Origin: Candidatus Neomarinimicrobiota bacterium
Lineage (GTDB): Bacteria > Fidelibacterota > Marinisomatia > Marinisomatales > TCS55
Direction of reading: 5' to 3'
Length of the DNA: 64,000 nucleotides
Assembly: GCA_018651745.1 (NCBI GenBank)
Contig: JABIDL010000027.1
Coordinates: forward strand, 1-64,000
This document shows positions 7,205-56,724 of the stretch, piece after piece. How positions within the stretch are numbered: position 1 is the first letter of the stretch; each line of letters starts with the position of its first letter. The notes beneath the pieces are model-generated. The model saw only the letters and a list, made by a program, of their open reading frames with translations, did no database searches and was not told where the DNA came from. A program made the position numbers and the translations under genes.

Positions 7205-7957
7205 ATGACTTTACAAAATACAAACAATACACAATTTGACCAGGATCATCTTCCACGCCATATTGCGATTATTATGGACGGGAACGGTCGTTGGGCTAAA
7301 AGCCGTGGGCTACCTAGGATAACGGGTCACGCAGAAGGTATTAATTCTGTACGAGAAATAACACGCGTAGCCGGCGAAATTGGTATAATGCATCTGACGC
7401 TTTATACCTTCTCTCAGGAAAATTGGTCGCGTCCGGCAACAGAAGTATCCGCCTTAATGAAGCTTCTTTTAAAAACAATACGAAAAGAAGTTGAAAACTT
7501 AAATGAAAACAATGTCCGGCTAACTACGATAGGCAATGTAAGCGATTTACCCGATGGTGCAAGAAAAGAGATTGAAGAGGGGATCGAGCTAACAAAACAT
7601 AACTCTGGGTTGAATTTGAATCTTGCCTTGAGTTATGGCGGACGACAAGAATTAATAGCTGCGATTATACAAATTGGGAAAAAATTAAAAGATGGTAGTT
7701 TAAAACCTGAAGATGTGGATGAATCTCTTGTCGCGTCAATGCTATATACTTCGGATATCCCCGATCCAGATTTATTGATTCGCACTGGCGGAGAATATAG
7801 AGTAAGCAATTTTCTATTGTGGCAAATAGCATACACTGAAATGGTTGTAACCCAAAACTATTGGCCTGAATTCCGAGAAAATGATTTATTAGAAGCTATC
7901 AAGATTTATCAGGATAGAGATCGCCGGTTTGGGAAAGTCAGCGGTCAGGTAGCATAA
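7205..7957 (+). CDS. uppS: Isoprenyl transferase (undecaprenyl diphosphate synthase)
   Basis: The 250-residue length fits the family. The first motif HIAIIMDGNGRWAKSRGLPR (about residues 18-37) carries the catalytic Asp. Further matches are TLYTFSQENWSRP, LNLALSYGGRQEL and PDLLIRTGGEYRVSNFLLWQ near the C-terminus, where family members bind diphosphate and magnesium. It extends farnesyl diphosphate with cis-isopentenyl units to the C55 carrier lipid used for peptidoglycan and O-antigen. Its stop overlaps the bamA start by one base (TAATG), and it heads the envelope cluster running to rseP. Confidence 0.97.
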   Translation: MTLQNTNNTQFDQDHLPRHIAIIMDGNGRWAKSRGLPRITGHAEGINSVREITRVAGEIGIMHLTLYTFSQENWSRPATEVSALMKLLLKTIRKEVENLNENNVRLTTIGNVSDLPDGARKEIEEGIELTKHNSGLNLNLALSYGGRQELIAAIIQIGKKLKDGSLKPEDVDESLVASMLYTSDIPDPDLLIRTGGEYRVSNFLLWQIAYTEMVVTQNYWPEFRENDLLEAIKIYQDRDRRFGKVSGQVA

Positions 7958-50781: not shown

Positions 50782-51402
50782 TCAACACCCTCCCTCTGGC
50801 GCTTTCTTTTTCTTTCTTTGTTTAATTTTTGGCTTGGTTATTTTTGTTTTTGTTGAAGTTGTTTTAGATATTCCTCCACTCCCAAAATACTGACTGGCCC
50901 CTTTTCTGAATTCATATTTTGCAATTTCATCATCCGGCGATGTGGACTTCGGTTTATTGGGATTTAAAATTGTTTCTGTCCAATAATTCAATCCGCCCAT
51001 TAATACCGTATTGTTTTCATAGCCAAGTTGTCGAGATATCATCCAAGCTTCGTGGGCCCGTGTTGTACCATTAGAATAAAGAATGTTCATTTTAATATCC
51101 TGATCTAAAAAATCAACCCATTCATCATCCAATAATTGATTTAGCGGAATATTAATCGCACCATCTAAATGAAAATTTTGAAATTCATCTCTAGATCGTA
51201 TATCGATAAGTTGAATGGATGGATCATTGTTGATTAACCATTCTGCAAGCTCATCCGGATGAATAAGTTCAGACCCATATTGTACCTCATTCAACATTTC
51301 TGAAGCTGTAAGTCGAAATGGTTTTGTGGTATTTTCCGGCACAAATGCAATGATAAGTCCAAATCCTAATAGCACGGCCGTAAGTTTATTTCGAGGTGTC
51401 AT
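50782..51402 (-). CDS. Membrane-anchored rhodanese-like protein, active-site Cys replaced by Ser, C-terminal Gly-Gly-Cys
   Basis: The 206-residue protein has an N-terminal membrane anchor or signal (KLTAVLLGFGLIIAFV). The rhodanese fold (about residues 45-145) shows LIDIRSRDEFQNFHLDGAIN and GGLNYW. The catalytic loop reads YSNGTTRA, with Ser110 where sulfurtransferases have Cys. A basic tail of about 40 residues (KTKITKPKIKQRKKKKAPEG) ends in GGC, the only Cys I see. It probably faces the periplasm. It is last in the sulfur operon. A Cys-ended flexible tail is reminiscent of the SoxY GGCGG arm, so a sulfur-carrier role is possible but inferred. Confidence 0.85.
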   Translation of the reverse strand: MTPRNKLTAVLLGFGLIIAFVPENTTKPFRLTASEMLNEVQYGSELIHPDELAEWLINNDPSIQLIDIRSRDEFQNFHLDGAINIPLNQLLDDEWVDFLDQDIKMNILYSNGTTRAHEAWMISRQLGYENNTVLMGGLNYWTETILNPNKPKSTSPDDEIAKYEFRKGASQYFGSGGISKTTSTKTKITKPKIKQRKKKKAPEGGC

Positions 51403-51404
51403 GG

Positions 51405-51995
51405 TTAATACTCCTCTCTTGGAAATTTTTTCTCAGCAATTTCAGCAATCCAAAACATAATTAAAGCCGCAATAATTACGAAAAAAGTCAGGAATCCTTG
51501 AGAAATACCCAAAATTTTAGATAGTTTTATCTGACCAAGGTATTCCGCCATATAGAGTGATTTGATCATGGGATAAAATTCGCCAAAAACGAAAATTCCT
51601 ATAAAAATACCACCGACAAACACCATGGCATCAATTTTACCAATGGCTGCTGCACATACACTTGTTCCCGGGCAGAATCCACCTATGATAAATCCAGCGC
51701 CCATAATAATGCCGCCAACTATCGCTGACCATAAGTATGTGGGGTTGACCCATACCAAGTTCAAATCAATCCAGTCAAACAAGCTAAAATAGAGCAACCC
51801 AAGCATGCCTGTAACTGCAGCGGTAAAAAATACTTTTAAAACAACAGCATCATATCCGTAAAAAACACCTGCAAGTTTTCGGCTTGAGGAGAACCCTGCT
51901 TGTTCTAATATAAACCCAAATCCAATTCCTACAGCAAAGGCTATAAAAAAATTCCATCCCTCACCAATAACTTCTTGGGGTATTAAAGGTCCCAT
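51405..51995 (-). CDS. YeeE/YedE-family sulfur-transport membrane protein (second copy)
   Basis: This protein has about 196 residues from ATG 51995 with GGAG upstream; the longer frame to 52055 would overlap the neighbouring gene. About five membrane helices. The GFCPGTSVCAAAIGKIDA segment holds the conserved Cys of the family in a membrane-reentrant site (about residues 106-123). An earlier conserved motif is GFGFILEQAGFSSSRKLAGV. Relatives such as TsuA carry thiosulfate. With the upstream gene it makes a pair of half-size proteins that could form one transporter. It follows ten bases after the other copy, before the rhodanese gene. Confidence 0.88.
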   Translation of the reverse strand: MGPLIPQEVIGEGWNFFIAFAVGIGFGFILEQAGFSSSRKLAGVFYGYDAVVLKVFFTAAVTGMLGLLYFSLFDWIDLNLVWVNPTYLWSAIVGGIIMGAGFIIGGFCPGTSVCAAAIGKIDAMVFVGGIFIGIFVFGEFYPMIKSLYMAEYLGQIKLSKILGISQGFLTFFVIIAALIMFWIAEIAEKKFPREEY

Positions 51996-52005
51996 AATTA
52001 ATCTC

Positions 52006-52515
52006 CTAAATCCAATTTTTTCTAAAAAAGTATGCCAATGCGAAAGCAGTGCCAAAAATAGCCATCATCGTTACAAACCCCGCCAAAGACAGAACAGCCA
52101 TCCCAGTAAGAGCGGAACCGCTTGTGCAGCCGCGACCCAATTGACTACCGAATCCAAAAAGAATACCGCCAATGCCGGCCAACATAAGGCGCTTATTTGA
52201 TGTAATTTTAGGACTATGCTCTACTTTCAATTTCAATCTACCCGCCAAAGCGCCTGATAGGAATCCCCCTACAATCACACCCAATATTTCATATACCAAC
52301 CAAGAATTTAGTGGATTCTTTCCTTCGCCCGTATATTTACTATAATATTCAGAATTGGATGCATGATCAGAGGCAACCATTTCTACTGCTGTAACCACAA
52401 CGCTTTTTACAGCACCACTGGCACCCAAGCCTCGCCCTGAAAAATAAAATGCAGATAGGAGGACCAGCCCCAATAGGACACCTGCAAGGTAGGGATTCAT
52501 ATATTTTGTTTTCAT
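52006..52515 (-). CDS. YeeE/YedE-family sulfur-transport membrane protein (first copy)
   Basis: The 169-residue protein has four to five membrane helices (about 8-28, 70-92, 108-125, 130-150). LFGFGSQLGRGCTSGSALTG carries the family cysteine. A periplasmic loop of about 40 residues (ASDHASNSEYYSKYTGEG) follows the first helix. It probably pairs with the downstream copy to import or export a sulfur species, e.g. thiosulfate or sulfide-derived sulfur. It sits ten bases after the NrfD gene. Confidence 0.87.
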   Translation of the reverse strand: MKTKYMNPYLAGVLLGLVLLSAFYFSGRGLGASGAVKSVVVTAVEMVASDHASNSEYYSKYTGEGKNPLNSWLVYEILGVIVGGFLSGALAGRLKLKVEHSPKITSNKRLMLAGIGGILFGFGSQLGRGCTSGSALTGMAVLSLAGFVTMMAIFGTAFALAYFFRKNWI

Positions 52516-52525
52516 ACTTTTCTCC

Positions 52526-53464
52526 TTAATAGAGCCAGCGACTTGCTTGACCCGCTTCGACTACAATAAACCGAAGCATAATGCTTCCAAATAATATCAA
52601 TAGTGCCGGTATATAGGCAGGTACTGTCTTTTTCTTTAATTCTATAACTTCAAGGATTACAGGTACAATCAATCCAAAACCAACAACAAAAACCCAAAAA
52701 CGAACTGTATATTCCCCACCTAAAAAGAGTTTTGCTGCTTCAATATGCACCTGCGTGCCCGCTAATAATCCCATAAATAAATGAGTAATTAAAAACAACT
52801 CTACTCCAATTAACATAAGATCTATTCTTGTAAACAAATGTCGTTCTTTTGATTTTGAAAAAAGAATAATGAAAGCCGTTCCTGCTGATAATCCAGATGT
52901 AAGGAAAAGGGGGCCCATTATGGCTGAATTCCAAAATGGCCTCGCGTTGAATGCCGATAATAATATACCCGTGTAAAGCCCCAATACAATTGCCAATACC
53001 ATCATTATCCAGGCAATAATATTTCGAAATGATATAAATTTATCTATTATTATTTGTAACCATTGGTATTTCCAATCCCAATTAGGGAAAGCCTCTTCGA
53101 CCCAACTGGCTGACCAAATCACAGATAGTGGCGTTATAACGAGCAATGTCCACGCGCCCCAACTCATAGGCGACTCCCAACGAATATTTGTATATAATTG
53201 CCAAAAATAAAGCTTATGGCTTAAATCAAGAAAAAGTGCAAATAACCCAACACCAAGCAAAATGGGTGTAATCATCGGCGCAATCATAACAGCAATTGGA
53301 AATTCTTTTGATTTTCCTCGAATGGCATAAAGAGCGGAAAAAAATAAAATCCCAGCCACTAACCCCCCAATAAAAAGATAGAGCGGAATTTCCCAATGCC
53401 AAACATGCAACACTGGATCAATCTCCGGATTCATTCTACCGCTTACAATTATTTCTTCTATCAT
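52526..53464 (-). CDS. NrfD/PsrC-family membrane subunit
   Basis: The 312-residue protein has eight or nine membrane helices. Typical features: VWHWEIPLYLFIGGLVAGIL at residues 23-42, FWNSAIMGPLFLTSGLSAGT, and the GLIVPVILEVIEL segment. Family members bind quinone and anchor the catalytic subunits of polysulfide or thiosulfate reductases. In this gene order (molybdopterin subunit, Fe-S subunit, NrfD) it should carry electrons between the quinone pool and the periplasmic enzyme; the direction is not fixed by sequence. Confidence 0.92.
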   Translation of the reverse strand: MIEEIIVSGRMNPEIDPVLHVWHWEIPLYLFIGGLVAGILFFSALYAIRGKSKEFPIAVMIAPMITPILLGVGLFALFLDLSHKLYFWQLYTNIRWESPMSWGAWTLLVITPLSVIWSASWVEEAFPNWDWKYQWLQIIIDKFISFRNIIAWIMMVLAIVLGLYTGILLSAFNARPFWNSAIMGPLFLTSGLSAGTAFIILFSKSKERHLFTRIDLMLIGVELFLITHLFMGLLAGTQVHIEAAKLFLGGEYTVRFWVFVVGFGLIVPVILEVIELKKKTVPAYIPALLILFGSIMLRFIVVEAGQASRWLY

Positions 53465-53468
53465 AATA

Positions 53469-54002
53469 TTATATCAAATAGTATATGTTTGGTTCAGTCC
53501 CGGCTTCTGGAATAAGTGTTTTCCATTTTCGTTTTTTCAATAATTTTGAAATATCACTATTGGGGTCATCAGTATCTCCAAAATACATACATTTTGTAGG
53601 GCAGACCTCAACGCAAGCAGGATCTTCTCCTTTTTCAACTTTATGAATACAAAAGGTGCATTTATCCACATGCCCTTCTGGGTGAATATATCTTGCATCA
53701 TATGGGCAAGAGGCAATGCACGCCTTACATCCAATACACTGGTCAGGATCGACAAGAACTATCCCACCTTCAACTATATGGCTTGCTTCCGTTGGACAGC
53801 AACGTACACAAGGCGCATTGGTACAATGGTTACATCGTTCACTCCGCATCTCCATCGATAAATCAGGATATGTTCCAGAAGTCGCTTCCACGACCCAATC
53901 TCGACAAAAACCATCTGGCACATTATTTTCAATTTGGCATGCTACAACACAATCGCTACACCCAACACATTTTTTCGTATCGATGGCCATGGCATAACGC
54001 AT
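53469..54002 (-). CDS. 4Fe-4S ferredoxin-type electron-transfer subunit (PsrB/PhsB/NrfC-like)
   Basis: The protein has 177 residues and 16 cluster cysteines in four motifs: CVGCSDCVVAC, CNHCTNAPCVRCCP, CIGCKACIASCPY and CTFCIHKVEKGEDPACVEVC. This is the usual four-cluster layout of PsrB-type subunits. It has no signal peptide and is expected to be exported with the Tat-bearing partner. It passes electrons between the NrfD quinone site and the molybdopterin subunit. Its ATG overlaps the stop of that partner by one base. Confidence 0.96.
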   Translation of the reverse strand: MRYAMAIDTKKCVGCSDCVVACQIENNVPDGFCRDWVVEATSGTYPDLSMEMRSERCNHCTNAPCVRCCPTEASHIVEGGIVLVDPDQCIGCKACIASCPYDARYIHPEGHVDKCTFCIHKVEKGEDPACVEVCPTKCMYFGDTDDPNSDISKLLKKRKWKTLIPEAGTEPNIYYLI

Positions 54003-56242
54003 TAGACACCACCTTGAACTGGCATTTCAGTATGAAATGTCACAAAGTTCCCCCGCATACCAGTACCACCCATTTCAGGATCAATGTGTACCTTTGTGAT
54101 TAATTCTGCATCGCTTGCACCTTTGCCATGAGCTCGGGAAAGATTTTTATTCGTATGACCAAACCCATGAACCATATAAATTGAATCCCATCGAATTCGC
54201 TCTGTAACTCGAACCTTGATGGGGAATGAAGAAATAACACCATCCTGATTTTCTAACCAAATTTTCTGATCGTTTTTTAATCCCCACTCTTTAGCAACTT
54301 TCGGATTAATCCATACAGAATTTTCATCCATTAGATTGGTTAAGTTTGGATTGTTAGCTGTTCGGCTAAACGTGTGCATGGGCGCCCGACCGTAAATCAA
54401 TCTATAAAATCCATCGGGTGGTTCTTCGTGAGCCGTATATTTTGGTAAAGGATCATATCCTTCGTCTTCCATTGATGTTGAATACAATTCAATTTTACCC
54501 GTATTGGTATTGAATTCATATTCTTCAAGGTTTTCTAAGGGATAAAGATCATCAAATTCACGAGCATATTTCTTGAGACCAATCTTTTTCATTTCCTTTA
54601 ACGAAGAACCAATTTGTTTTAACTGCCAATCTAATTCTTCTTCTATTGTTTCAAATGGAAAGTATTCATCCAAACCAAGGCGACCGGCCAACTCTTTTGC
54701 CATCCACCATGCCGGTTTTGAATTATACTTTGGCTCAGCAGCAGGGGCTCTCAATGCCACTGTTGGTTCACGATGGCTACTCACTCTCAAATTATCATAT
54801 CGTTCCAAATAGGTACATTCCGGTAAAACTACATCTGCCCATCCTGTTATTTCCATGGGCATCGTATCAATGGCAACCATTAGGTCTAAATTTTGAATAG
54901 CTTTTAAAGTATTCTTCTGATCAGGTAAGGTGGAAATAAGATTTGTACCATTAACAAACCAACCCTTGAATGAACAATCTCTCTCAACAGTAGGTATCGT
55001 GGCATCACAAATCCCCGATGCCAATGCAAGGCCTGCTAATTTATACTGTCCCGGAAATGCATCCCGCCATGTTTTAGTTGGTTTTGGATATTTTGGTAGC
55101 TTCAATTTGGCAACTTTATATTTTTCCGGGTTATAAAAGCCTCCACGTCGCCCCCAGCTGCCCAATAAAGCATTTAGGATTGAAACAGCGCGCAAACGCT
55201 GAGTATCGTCACCATACCAGGTGACATGTCGTCCTGGATGAACAATTACAGATGGTGAGGCATTGGCCATTTCTTTGGCAGTTTTACGAATGACATTTGG
55301 TTTAATTGTGGTAATACCATAGGCCCACTCTGGTGTAAAATCTTTTACATGCGATTTTAGCTCTTCAAAGCCAAATGTATATTTTTCCACATATTTCTTA
55401 TCATACCATTCTTCTTTAATAATCACATGTATCCATGCAAGAAGAAGAGCCATATCGGTCGCCGGTTTTATGGGTAGCCAATAATCTGATTTACTAGCGG
55501 CAGTGGAAAAACGGGGGTCCACAGTTATAATGGTTGCGTCTTTATCTATGGCATCAGACATTTCTTGAACTTGCCCATTATGCATATTTTCACCAATATG
55601 AGATCCAATCAATACCAAGCAATCCGTATCGCGAATATCTACTCGTTCTGGTGATCCAATTCCTTCGCCATAGGTTGCAAAAAATGCAACTTCTCTAGGC
55701 CCCCTACATTGTGCATAAGATGGGGCCGTTATATTGGGAGAGCCAAATGCTTTTAGCATGCGCCCAAAGTGTTTACCCCCTGAACCGTGAGAAAATAGGG
55801 CTATACATTCCGGGCCATATTTTTCTGAAATTTTTTGCATTTTTTCCGCAATATAATCAAATGCCTCATCCCATGTGGCTTCACGAAATGTTTGACTGCC
55901 TCTTTTTCCTGTACGAATTAAAGGTGTCTTTAACCTGTCATCATCATAATACATTCCAACGCCACCGGTACCACGTGGACATAACCGCCCATTACAATGG
56001 GGATCATTATCATGGCCAGTTAATTTCCAGATATCACCCTTTTCGTTTAAATGGGCCCAACCTGCACATTTCCAAAAACATACTTCGCAATAGGTAGGGA
56101 TTTTATTGAATGTTTGCTGAAGATCGGCTTCGGTTAAAACCGCGCCAGTTGCCCAATCAAAAATGGGATTTGCCATCGCTAGGCCGCCTAAACCGGCAGT
56201 TGATATTTTAATGAAATCTCTTCTGTTAAATTGTTTTGACAT
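54002..56242 (-). CDS. Tat-exported molybdopterin oxidoreductase, polysulfide/thiosulfate reductase type (PsrA/PhsA-like)
   Basis: This protein has about 746 residues from ATG 56242, where the Tat signal starts (FNRRDFIKISTAGLGG). The longer frame to 56302 would lie inside the regulator. The N-terminal Fe-S motif has Cys52, Cys55, Cys59 and Cys88 (NGRLCPRG). Cys179 in APSYAQCRGPREVAF is the candidate Mo ligand, as in PsrA/PhsA. C-terminal molydopterin-binding segments follow (VLPECTYLERYDNLRVSSHR). It acts in the periplasm on polysulfide, thiosulfate, tetrathionate or arsenic species; sulfur is favoured by the neighbours. Respiratory arsenate reductase is an alternative since arsC occurs elsewhere. 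Confidence 0.9.
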   Translation of the reverse strand: MSKQFNRRDFIKISTAGLGGLAMANPIFDWATGAVLTEADLQQTFNKIPTYCEVCFWKCAGWAHLNEKGDIWKLTGHDNDPHCNGRLCPRGTGGVGMYYDDDRLKTPLIRTGKRGSQTFREATWDEAFDYIAEKMQKISEKYGPECIALFSHGSGGKHFGRMLKAFGSPNITAPSYAQCRGPREVAFFATYGEGIGSPERVDIRDTDCLVLIGSHIGENMHNGQVQEMSDAIDKDATIITVDPRFSTAASKSDYWLPIKPATDMALLLAWIHVIIKEEWYDKKYVEKYTFGFEELKSHVKDFTPEWAYGITTIKPNVIRKTAKEMANASPSVIVHPGRHVTWYGDDTQRLRAVSILNALLGSWGRRGGFYNPEKYKVAKLKLPKYPKPTKTWRDAFPGQYKLAGLALASGICDATIPTVERDCSFKGWFVNGTNLISTLPDQKNTLKAIQNLDLMVAIDTMPMEITGWADVVLPECTYLERYDNLRVSSHREPTVALRAPAAEPKYNSKPAWWMAKELAGRLGLDEYFPFETIEEELDWQLKQIGSSLKEMKKIGLKKYAREFDDLYPLENLEEYEFNTNTGKIELYSTSMEDEGYDPLPKYTAHEEPPDGFYRLIYGRAPMHTFSRTANNPNLTNLMDENSVWINPKVAKEWGLKNDQKIWLENQDGVISSFPIKVRVTERIRWDSIYMVHGFGHTNKNLSRAHGKGASDAELITKVHIDPEMGGTGMRGNFVTFHTEMPVQGGV

Positions 56243-56247
56243 ATGAT

Positions 56248-56724
56248 CTAGTAGAGGCCTTCGTCCAAAATATTTTTGTAAAGATGCTTTATATCCGTGC
56301 ATTTATTCGCCAGTTGATACACCTTACATTCACGGCAATCCACATCCACGCAATCCATTCCTTTTGGATTTGCTTTCCAACAGGGTTTTGTTGAGACGGT
56401 ATATGCTTCGCAAGAATTTCGACTGGATTTACTGCATGGCTTAATGATCCAACACGGAACAAGGGCAAGCAAACTTTTGATGCCGGCAATGTTGAGTCCT
56501 TCTTCATCTAGATGCTTTCGAATGCAAAGAATCCGGTTGATGTCTACATCAGAGTAGAGTCGTCTTTTTGTTTTAGTTTTATGGGGAAGTATGAGCCCTC
56601 TATCTTCGTACATACGTAAAGTAGAAATGGCTGTATTGGTAAGTTTTGCGGCTATAGATATCGTATATAAAGGCCGGGAGTCATTGTTGGGAATATTCGA
56701 ATTTTGTGATTCGCTAGTATTCAT
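56248..56724 (-). CDS. MerR-family regulator with cysteine-rich C-terminus
   Basis: The 158-residue protein has an N-terminal winged helix (ISIAAKLTNTAISTLRMYED, residues about 23-42; GLILPHKTKTKRRLYSDVDI). After a short coil (EEGLNIAGIKSLLAL) come eight cysteines in about 55 residues: VPCWIIKPC, NSC, KPCW, MDCVDVDCREC and NKC. Such a layout suggests binding of a metal, Fe-S cluster or reactive sulfur; SoxR-type CxxCxC is not matched. It lies five bases before the molybdopterin gene in the same direction, so it is likely to regulate that operon. Confidence 0.9.
   Translation of the reverse strand: MNTSESQNSNIPNNDSRPLYTISIAAKLTNTAISTLRMYEDRGLILPHKTKTKRRLYSDVDINRILCIRKHLDEEGLNIAGIKSLLALVPCWIIKPCSKSSRNSCEAYTVSTKPCWKANPKGMDCVDVDCRECKVYQLANKCTDIKHLYKNILDEGLY

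Follow-up and report, generated by a model that had tools for sequence, protein, structure and literature searches.

Members of a large, unnamed family of rhodanese-fold proteins, which was found in Marinimicrobia and Bacteroidota (the two phyla sampled), have lost the catalytic cysteine of the rhodanese domain and end in a basic tail tipped by a near-universal cysteine, or by a candidate selenocysteine in one clade. Two halves of a YeeE-type transporter are their near-constant genetic partner. On balance, the protein is probably a membrane-tethered periplasmic sulfur carrier, with a flexible arm that would move sulfane sulfur between a redox enzyme and the YeeE channel. The family was examined starting from one gene in the window, the whole 64,000-nucleotide stretch of DNA that was analyzed.

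The reading frame in question was confirmed as a real gene of a Marinimicrobia/SAR406 host (Table 1), with its nearest relatives, at 67 to 88% identity, encoded in Candidatus Neomarinimicrobiota (SAR406) MAGs. The Pfam rhodanese model PF00581 matched residues 49 to 143 at 53.9 bits (cut-off, 22.2; E = 2.6e-14). In HMM alignments, Ser110 fell on the catalytic cysteine of 3d1p (FYCASGKR) and 6mxv (FYCGGGFR); the cysteine of an active rhodanese sulfurtransferase is therefore absent from the window protein. The CxxGxR-type loop reads SNGTTR, and its arginine is not retained in relatives. Cys206 is the sole cysteine and the last residue, within the tail ...KQRKKKKAPEGGC, and the final 40 residues carry a net charge of +11. 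The first-pass annotation was thus correct in each of these details, namely the fold, the replacement of the catalytic cysteine by Ser110, the basic tail, and the GGC end with its only cysteine. Hydrophobic residues 7 to 25 and the positive charge preceding them predict a membrane anchor in N-in orientation with the domain on the periplasmic side, a placement made from hydropathy and charge; in 66 stand-alone members, Lys and Arg averaged 3.4 before this segment and 2.0 after it. The AlphaFold model was poor (pLDDT 53 overall and 32 to 42 in the tail, from a shallow alignment of 12 sequences) and was taken only as support for the fold and the disordered tail, not for the reach or docking of the arm; Foldseek matches to this low-confidence model were rhodaneses. 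When the window genome was searched for the GGC-end pattern, 21 matches were obtained against 23 in a reversed-pattern control, i.e., chance level, and among the 17 match loci read, only the window protein and one 53-codon reading frame ended in GGC.

Table 1. Features of the window operon and candidate selenocysteine sites in related loci
Feature	Position	Strand	Basis
GGC-tailed rhodanese-fold protein, 206 aa, ATG start	50782..51402	(-)	ORF, rhodanese PF00581 and family comparison
Stop TGA of the rhodanese-fold gene	50782-50784	(-)	Read from DNA
Terminal Gly-Gly-Cys codons GGA GGG TGT	50785..50793	(-)	Read from DNA
Lys/Arg-rich tail, predicted disordered, residues 174-206, end ...KKKKAPEGGC	50785..50883	(-)	Charge; pLDDT 32-42
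Rhodanese domain, residues 49-143	50974..51258	(-)	PF00581; low-confidence predicted fold; Foldseek
Ser110 codon at the catalytic-Cys position	51073..51075	(-)	HMM alignment to solved rhodaneses
Predicted transmembrane anchor at the N-terminus, residues 7-25; orientation N-in/C-out from positive charges	51328..51384	(-)	Hydropathy 1.63
YeeE C-half (PF04143)	51405..52055	(-)	Pfam match
YeeE N-half, TsuA-like (PF04143), conserved GRGCTSG cysteine	52006..52515	(-)	Pfam match
NrfD/PsrC-like quinone-linked membrane subunit	52526..53464	(-)	PF03916
PsrB-like 4Fe-4S subunit	53469..54002	(-)	Domain match
PsrA/PhsA-like molybdopterin oxidoreductase, RR (Tat-type) leader	54002..56302	(-)	PhsA model NF012032, 502 bits, under its cut-off of 694
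MerR-type regulator, Cys-rich C-terminal part	56248..56724	(-)	ORF and domain match
Candidate C-terminal Sec site, L194	2644-2679		TGA GGC stop
Candidate C-terminal Sec site, L199	7800-7835		TGA GGC stop
Candidate C-terminal Sec site, L200	reverse-complement position 7855	(-)	TGA GGC stop

The gene stands last in the minus-strand order MerR, PsrA/PhsA-like, 4Fe-4S, NrfD, YeeE N-half, YeeE C-half and rhodanese-fold protein, and the sulfur operon suspected in the first-pass annotation is real. The psrABC genes were already known in Marinimicrobia (PMC5688066, PMC8359478); in open-licence papers, no description was found of the tail or of the protein encoded downstream of psrABC. The listed TTG start of the YeeE C-half is probably wrong, since its homologues are about 199 aa long, often with a stop closely preceding them, and the true start is probably near 51995.

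Of 245 host-phylum genomes, 35 had a rhodanese-fold homologue, as did 42 of 395 sampled Bacteroidota. Searching with the YeeE C-half, the rhodanese not being used, recovered 39 host-phylum and 65 Bacteroidota genomes, and every clear match with a readable context carried the rhodanese, either separate or fused. The rhodanese was missing only from YeeE matches that were weak (E about 1e-14 to 1e-19) and that appear to be another YeeE group. The 108 nonredundant members analyzed below were chosen as lying beside or fused to a YeeE half.

The tail cysteine was the last or second-last residue in all 104 readable Cys-form members, the other four of the 108 being three TGA forms (L194, L199, and L200) and one masked sequence (L195). 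Among 103 tabulated members it was last in 93 and second-last in 10, preceded by GG (75), EG (18), MG (4), GS (2), GL (2), DG (1), or FQ (1), so that nearly all show the Gly-flanked C-terminal cysteine that is a feature of the SoxY type. It was also present in both copies at L067, in L073, and in L127. By comparison, none of 359 nonredundant products of neighboring genes (PsrA/B/C, YeeN/C, and MerR) ended in Cys, and the terminal cysteine is therefore not due to chance. True loss was ruled out: the three Cys-less members are TGA/Sec candidates, L195 is masked, and L258 has a frameshift, its tail ...KKKKREGC being read in the next frame and counted as a Cys form after correction.

The old catalytic position, in turn, was occupied by Ser in 60 members, Ala in 25, Gly in 20, Cys in 2, and Asp in 1. 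The expectation that orthologues near psr genes would keep the terminal cysteine and lack the catalytic one was therefore borne out (104/104 readable members against 2/108 with the old cysteine), and 87 of the 108 have no other cysteine in the part analyzed. Judged from these alignments, selection is acting on the tail and not on the rhodanese pocket, and position 110 is relaxed (S/A/G), Ser itself not being retained as a functional residue in the family at large. Of the suggested conservation at this site, the replacement of Cys held up, whereas the identity of the replacing residue carried no meaning. Ser110 as a new nucleophile was ruled out, the site being Ala or Gly in 45/108. It is accordingly very improbable that the protein is a degenerate rhodanese that still catalyzes, or a relic on which selection has been relaxed, using Ser110 as an alternative nucleophile; the fold is kept and Ser occupies the site in 60/108, but the site varies, the loop Arg is lost, and the tail is strongly constrained. 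Orthologues with Cys at position 110 or without the terminal Cys had been named in the first-pass annotation as speaking against its proposal. The only two of the first kind, L079 and L084, also retain the terminal cysteine, and the three of the second kind look like selenocysteine forms, which in substance leaves the proposal standing.

In the tandem duplicates at L066, L067, and L092/L093, the domains were only 21 to 29% identical, and the last 12 residues were identical or differed once. That 11 to 12 of 12 tail residues are shared despite such divergent domains argues that the tail meets a common partner. Copying onto paralogous domains is also a behavior of sorting tags, and the cysteine could instead serve as an attachment or tether (a disulfide to YeeE, a metal site, or a C-terminal sorting or modification signal), the rhodanese domain then being a structural component of the YeeE complex. 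Known sorting tags have a C-terminal transmembrane segment, however, whereas the rhodanese-fold protein has none there and already possesses an N-terminal anchor or a fusion to a membrane protein. The motif is strictly C-terminal and follows basic residues, and a role of C-terminal Cys or Sec in metal handling is seen in Cys-Cys-COOH and HgcB selenoproteins (PMC13188914); yet an extra last residue is tolerated in fusions (GGCS/A/G/T), and selenocysteine would be an unlikely choice for a structural link. A tethering role is thus considered a minor possibility.

The candidate selenocysteine forms L194, L199, and L200 are YeeE-rhodanese fusions from three Marinimicrobia species, 68 to 82% identical at the protein level. 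They seem to end at ...KKASGGG, but the DNA runs on as TGA-GGC-TAG/TGA-TAG, placing an in-frame TGA at the conserved cysteine position (GGG-TGA-GGC-stop, against GGC-G/S/A/T-stop in the Cys fusions). Read as Sec, the TGA gives the end GGU-G, matching GGCG, GGCS, GGCA, and GGCT of the Cys fusions; normal annotation would end these proteins too early, at GGG. A hairpin with a 6-bp stem and a 3-nt loop (GUU, GUU, and GGU) lies 18 nt after the TGA. At three of the six stem positions, L199 has different bases on both strands from L194 and L200, with pairing preserved in every case. With energies of -10.0, -7.9, and -10.0 kcal/mol in 24-nt windows, the three hairpins agree with the published bSECIS description (a 3- to 9-nt loop starting with G, a 4- to 16-bp stem, a spacing of 16 to 37 nt, and an MFE of -7.5 kcal/mol or below; PMC13188914), the isolated L199 hairpin being marginal on energy. 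The loop position agrees with that of E. coli fdhF as read from its genome. Since such hairpins also followed 18 of 338 (∼5%) TGA-ended ORFs in the fetched loci, 2 of the 18 being the candidates themselves, the hairpin alone is weak evidence, and the case is carried rather by the fixed position, the covariation, and the alignment with Cys forms. A transcription terminator was ruled out as the identity of the hairpin, a separate stem with a T-run occurring further downstream in all three. All three genomes (G235, G238, and G242) contain tRNA-Sec. SelB scored over the cut-off in two of them, G235 and G238; in G242, whose assembly is 63% complete, it was not detected. The Sec forms make up one clade inside the Cys forms on the tree, their exact sister group being subject to a long-branch warning. 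From these features, the three proteins appear to end in a terminal selenocysteine (GGU-G).

Exchange of Cys and Sec is typical of nucleophilic or redox residues, and a candidate Sec in place of Cys therefore indicates a reactive rather than a structural tail tip. It suits redox catalysis as well as sulfur transfer, so the tip might be a thiol-redox residue. In that role it would act on disulfides or persulfides of the YeeE halves or of the redox enzyme, by reduction or resolution, and maintain the channel cysteines in their thiol state. Both YeeE halves do have conserved cysteines, and DsbA/SoxS-type thiol proteins adjoin soxT in Hyphomicrobium (PMC11582611). However, a second, resolving cysteine is missing (87/108 members have no other in the part analyzed), as are a thioredoxin fold and an evident electron donor in the rhodanese-fold protein, which makes this role unlikely, if the most credible of the alternatives.

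SelB and tRNA-Sec are also encoded in the window genome, and selenium transport is the function of some YeeE/YedE relatives (similarity to TIGR04112 and NF033796; PMC5322559), which would fit a unit acting on selenium, or on a different chalcogen or metalloid (selenosulfide, selenite, tellurite, or mercury), in place of sulfane sulfur. This is improbable given that scores to the selenium YedE models were far under their cut-offs and that the partners belong to the Psr/Phs and octaheme tetrathionate-reductase families. As a separate observation, a TusA-family gene with an in-frame TGA was seen in the window genome (G000:C23:2050-2226) and in a relative (G028:C80:34866-35042), possibly a second selenoprotein of the sulfur-relay system.

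Two main arrangements were found. The separate gene with upstream psrABC-like genes, as in the window, occurred at 35 loci, and the fusion to the YeeE C-half, accompanied by an octaheme tetrathionate-reductase-family cytochrome and cytochrome b561, at 31 loci, the octaheme assignment resting on the family model TIGR04315 in two loci and on CxxCH motif counts in the rest. One cross-over was seen each way, and the fused/separate label requires five changes on the tree. At L126 and L132, the place of the respiratory enzyme is taken by a secreted sulfurtransferase of two domains whose Cys loop is intact; the tail protein beside the YeeE pair there ends in VRMGC, an ending shared by L257 and L259. 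Because the partners swap among Psr, the octaheme cytochrome, and the two-domain sulfurtransferase, the YeeE pair and the tail protein are, as far as gene content indicates, the core, with a redox enzyme that can be exchanged. A MerR/HspR-like regulator with a conserved Cys-rich C-terminal part (CRECKVYQL..C), encoded at the window position in Table 1 and at 3074-3601 in L134, precedes operons of both the Psr type and the octaheme type, which suggests a common regulator that senses sulfur or redox state. In L199 (3331-6018) and L200 (7932-10634), a fusion of about 900 aa, joining a multiheme cytochrome to a PhsC-like cytochrome b561 domain, sits between the octaheme cytochrome and the YeeE halves.

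With one exception, each member with a readable context lies next to YeeE halves. The exception is G543 (L107, G543:C4), where PsrABC and two tandem GGC-tailed rhodaneses lie beside a large multiheme cytochrome and no YeeE-family gene was found in the genome. Delivery to the transporter is thus not the whole story. The periplasmic carrier on a rhodanese scaffold envisaged in the first-pass annotation is still the best reading, as an inferred role, but its near-constant partner is the split YeeE rather than Psr, for which the octaheme cytochrome can substitute as the partner of the split YeeE and the tail protein.

For the proposed carrier, we infer the periplasmic location, the persulfide loading, and the direction and chemistry of transfer. 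The N-terminal helix would anchor the protein in the inner membrane, and the rhodanese fold, its own active-site cysteine lost, would serve as a noncatalytic docking or scaffold domain. The thiol at the tail tip (or the Sec in one clade) may accept sulfane sulfur in persulfide or thiosulfonate form, with the basic residues of the tail helping to attract anionic sulfur species. With PsrABC or the octaheme cytochrome at one end and the cysteine-lined channel of the paired YeeE halves at the other, the arm would then carry sulfur between the two, passing it to the YeeE cysteines or to or from the redox enzyme. Movement through the channel would more likely be import than export. Repeated fusion to the YeeE C-half on the tree favors such a carrier, and the lack of a cytoplasmic acceptor encoded in the operon speaks against it; a TusA gene is present elsewhere in the window genome (G000), outside the operon, and was not found in genomes G101 and G543.

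SoxY bears its substrate-binding cysteine on a C-terminal GGCGG arm (PMC6067878), and sulfur import from this cysteine to those of the YeeE-like SoxT has been proposed as conceivable (PMC11582611). The window family resembles SoxY as a predicted periplasmic carrier with a C-terminal Gly-flanked cysteine and a proposed YeeE-type recipient, but its cysteine occupies the last or second-last position after a long Lys-rich tail, and the protein is predicted to be membrane anchored. SoxY is not a rhodanese fold; in the window protein only PF00581 was matched and a SoxY domain was absent, and the operon has no Sox genes, with no SoxZ among the scanned operon genes. Sud, which has a rhodanese fold, carries polysulfide in Wolinella (PMC3397948, citing Klimmek 1998). 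Sud (1QXN) gave a weak sequence and structure match to the window protein, and as a sulfur carrier of polysulfide respiration it parallels a gene that is likewise encoded with psrABC-like genes. The sulfur-carrying cysteine of Sud lies within the rhodanese domain and Sud has no C-terminal arm, whereas the window family has lost the in-domain cysteine (Ser at position 110, with Cys206 the only cysteine). DsrC/TusE shares a flexible C-terminal arm with cysteine in its terminal region, but DsrC is cytoplasmic, has another fold, and uses two cysteines. On defining features, the protein is neither an active rhodanese, a Sud, nor a SoxY; by analogy, it would join a SoxY-like arm to the scaffold of Sud and plausibly works like both.

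On the transporter side, the two YeeE halves of the operon are PmpAB-like (PF04143) and comparable to TsuA/YeeE and PmpA/PmpB. TsuB/YeeD is a cytoplasmic TusA-type partner, whereas the near-constant partner here is the predicted periplasmic rhodanese-fold protein. Five rhodanese forms are in the list of prokaryotic selenoproteins (PMC13188914); these likewise pair a rhodanese domain with Sec, but their motifs are UxxS, UxxG, CxU, and UxxxxU, and none has the C-terminal Sec tail, in contrast to the candidate Sec in a terminal GGU arm found here.

From the comparisons above, the tail probably represents a novel type of arm that carries sulfur for a sulfur channel. More tentatively, at a little under even likelihood, the family may constitute an undescribed class of extracytoplasmic carriers in Marinimicrobia and Bacteroidota, with a rhodanese fold lacking the catalytic cysteine and a Cys- or Sec-tipped swinging arm that would load a two-subunit YeeE and work interchangeably with molybdenum or multiheme enzymes. 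Possible ways of presenting sulfane sulfur to YeeE-type transporters from outside have been discussed, the donor not having been demonstrated (PMC11582611), and the GGC-tailed family is a dedicated candidate donor, sometimes fused to the transporter itself. The evolutionary signal on the tail cysteine is unusually strong, and Cys206 is the one residue on which the proposed carrier role would hinge. With its TGA forms, the family also contributes a candidate selenoprotein whose Sec would sit in a terminal arm. The sulfur role of the Marinimicrobia of low-oxygen ocean waters is debated (PMC8359478, PMC5688066), and the GGC-tailed protein would add a function to the psr operons of these abundant bacteria.
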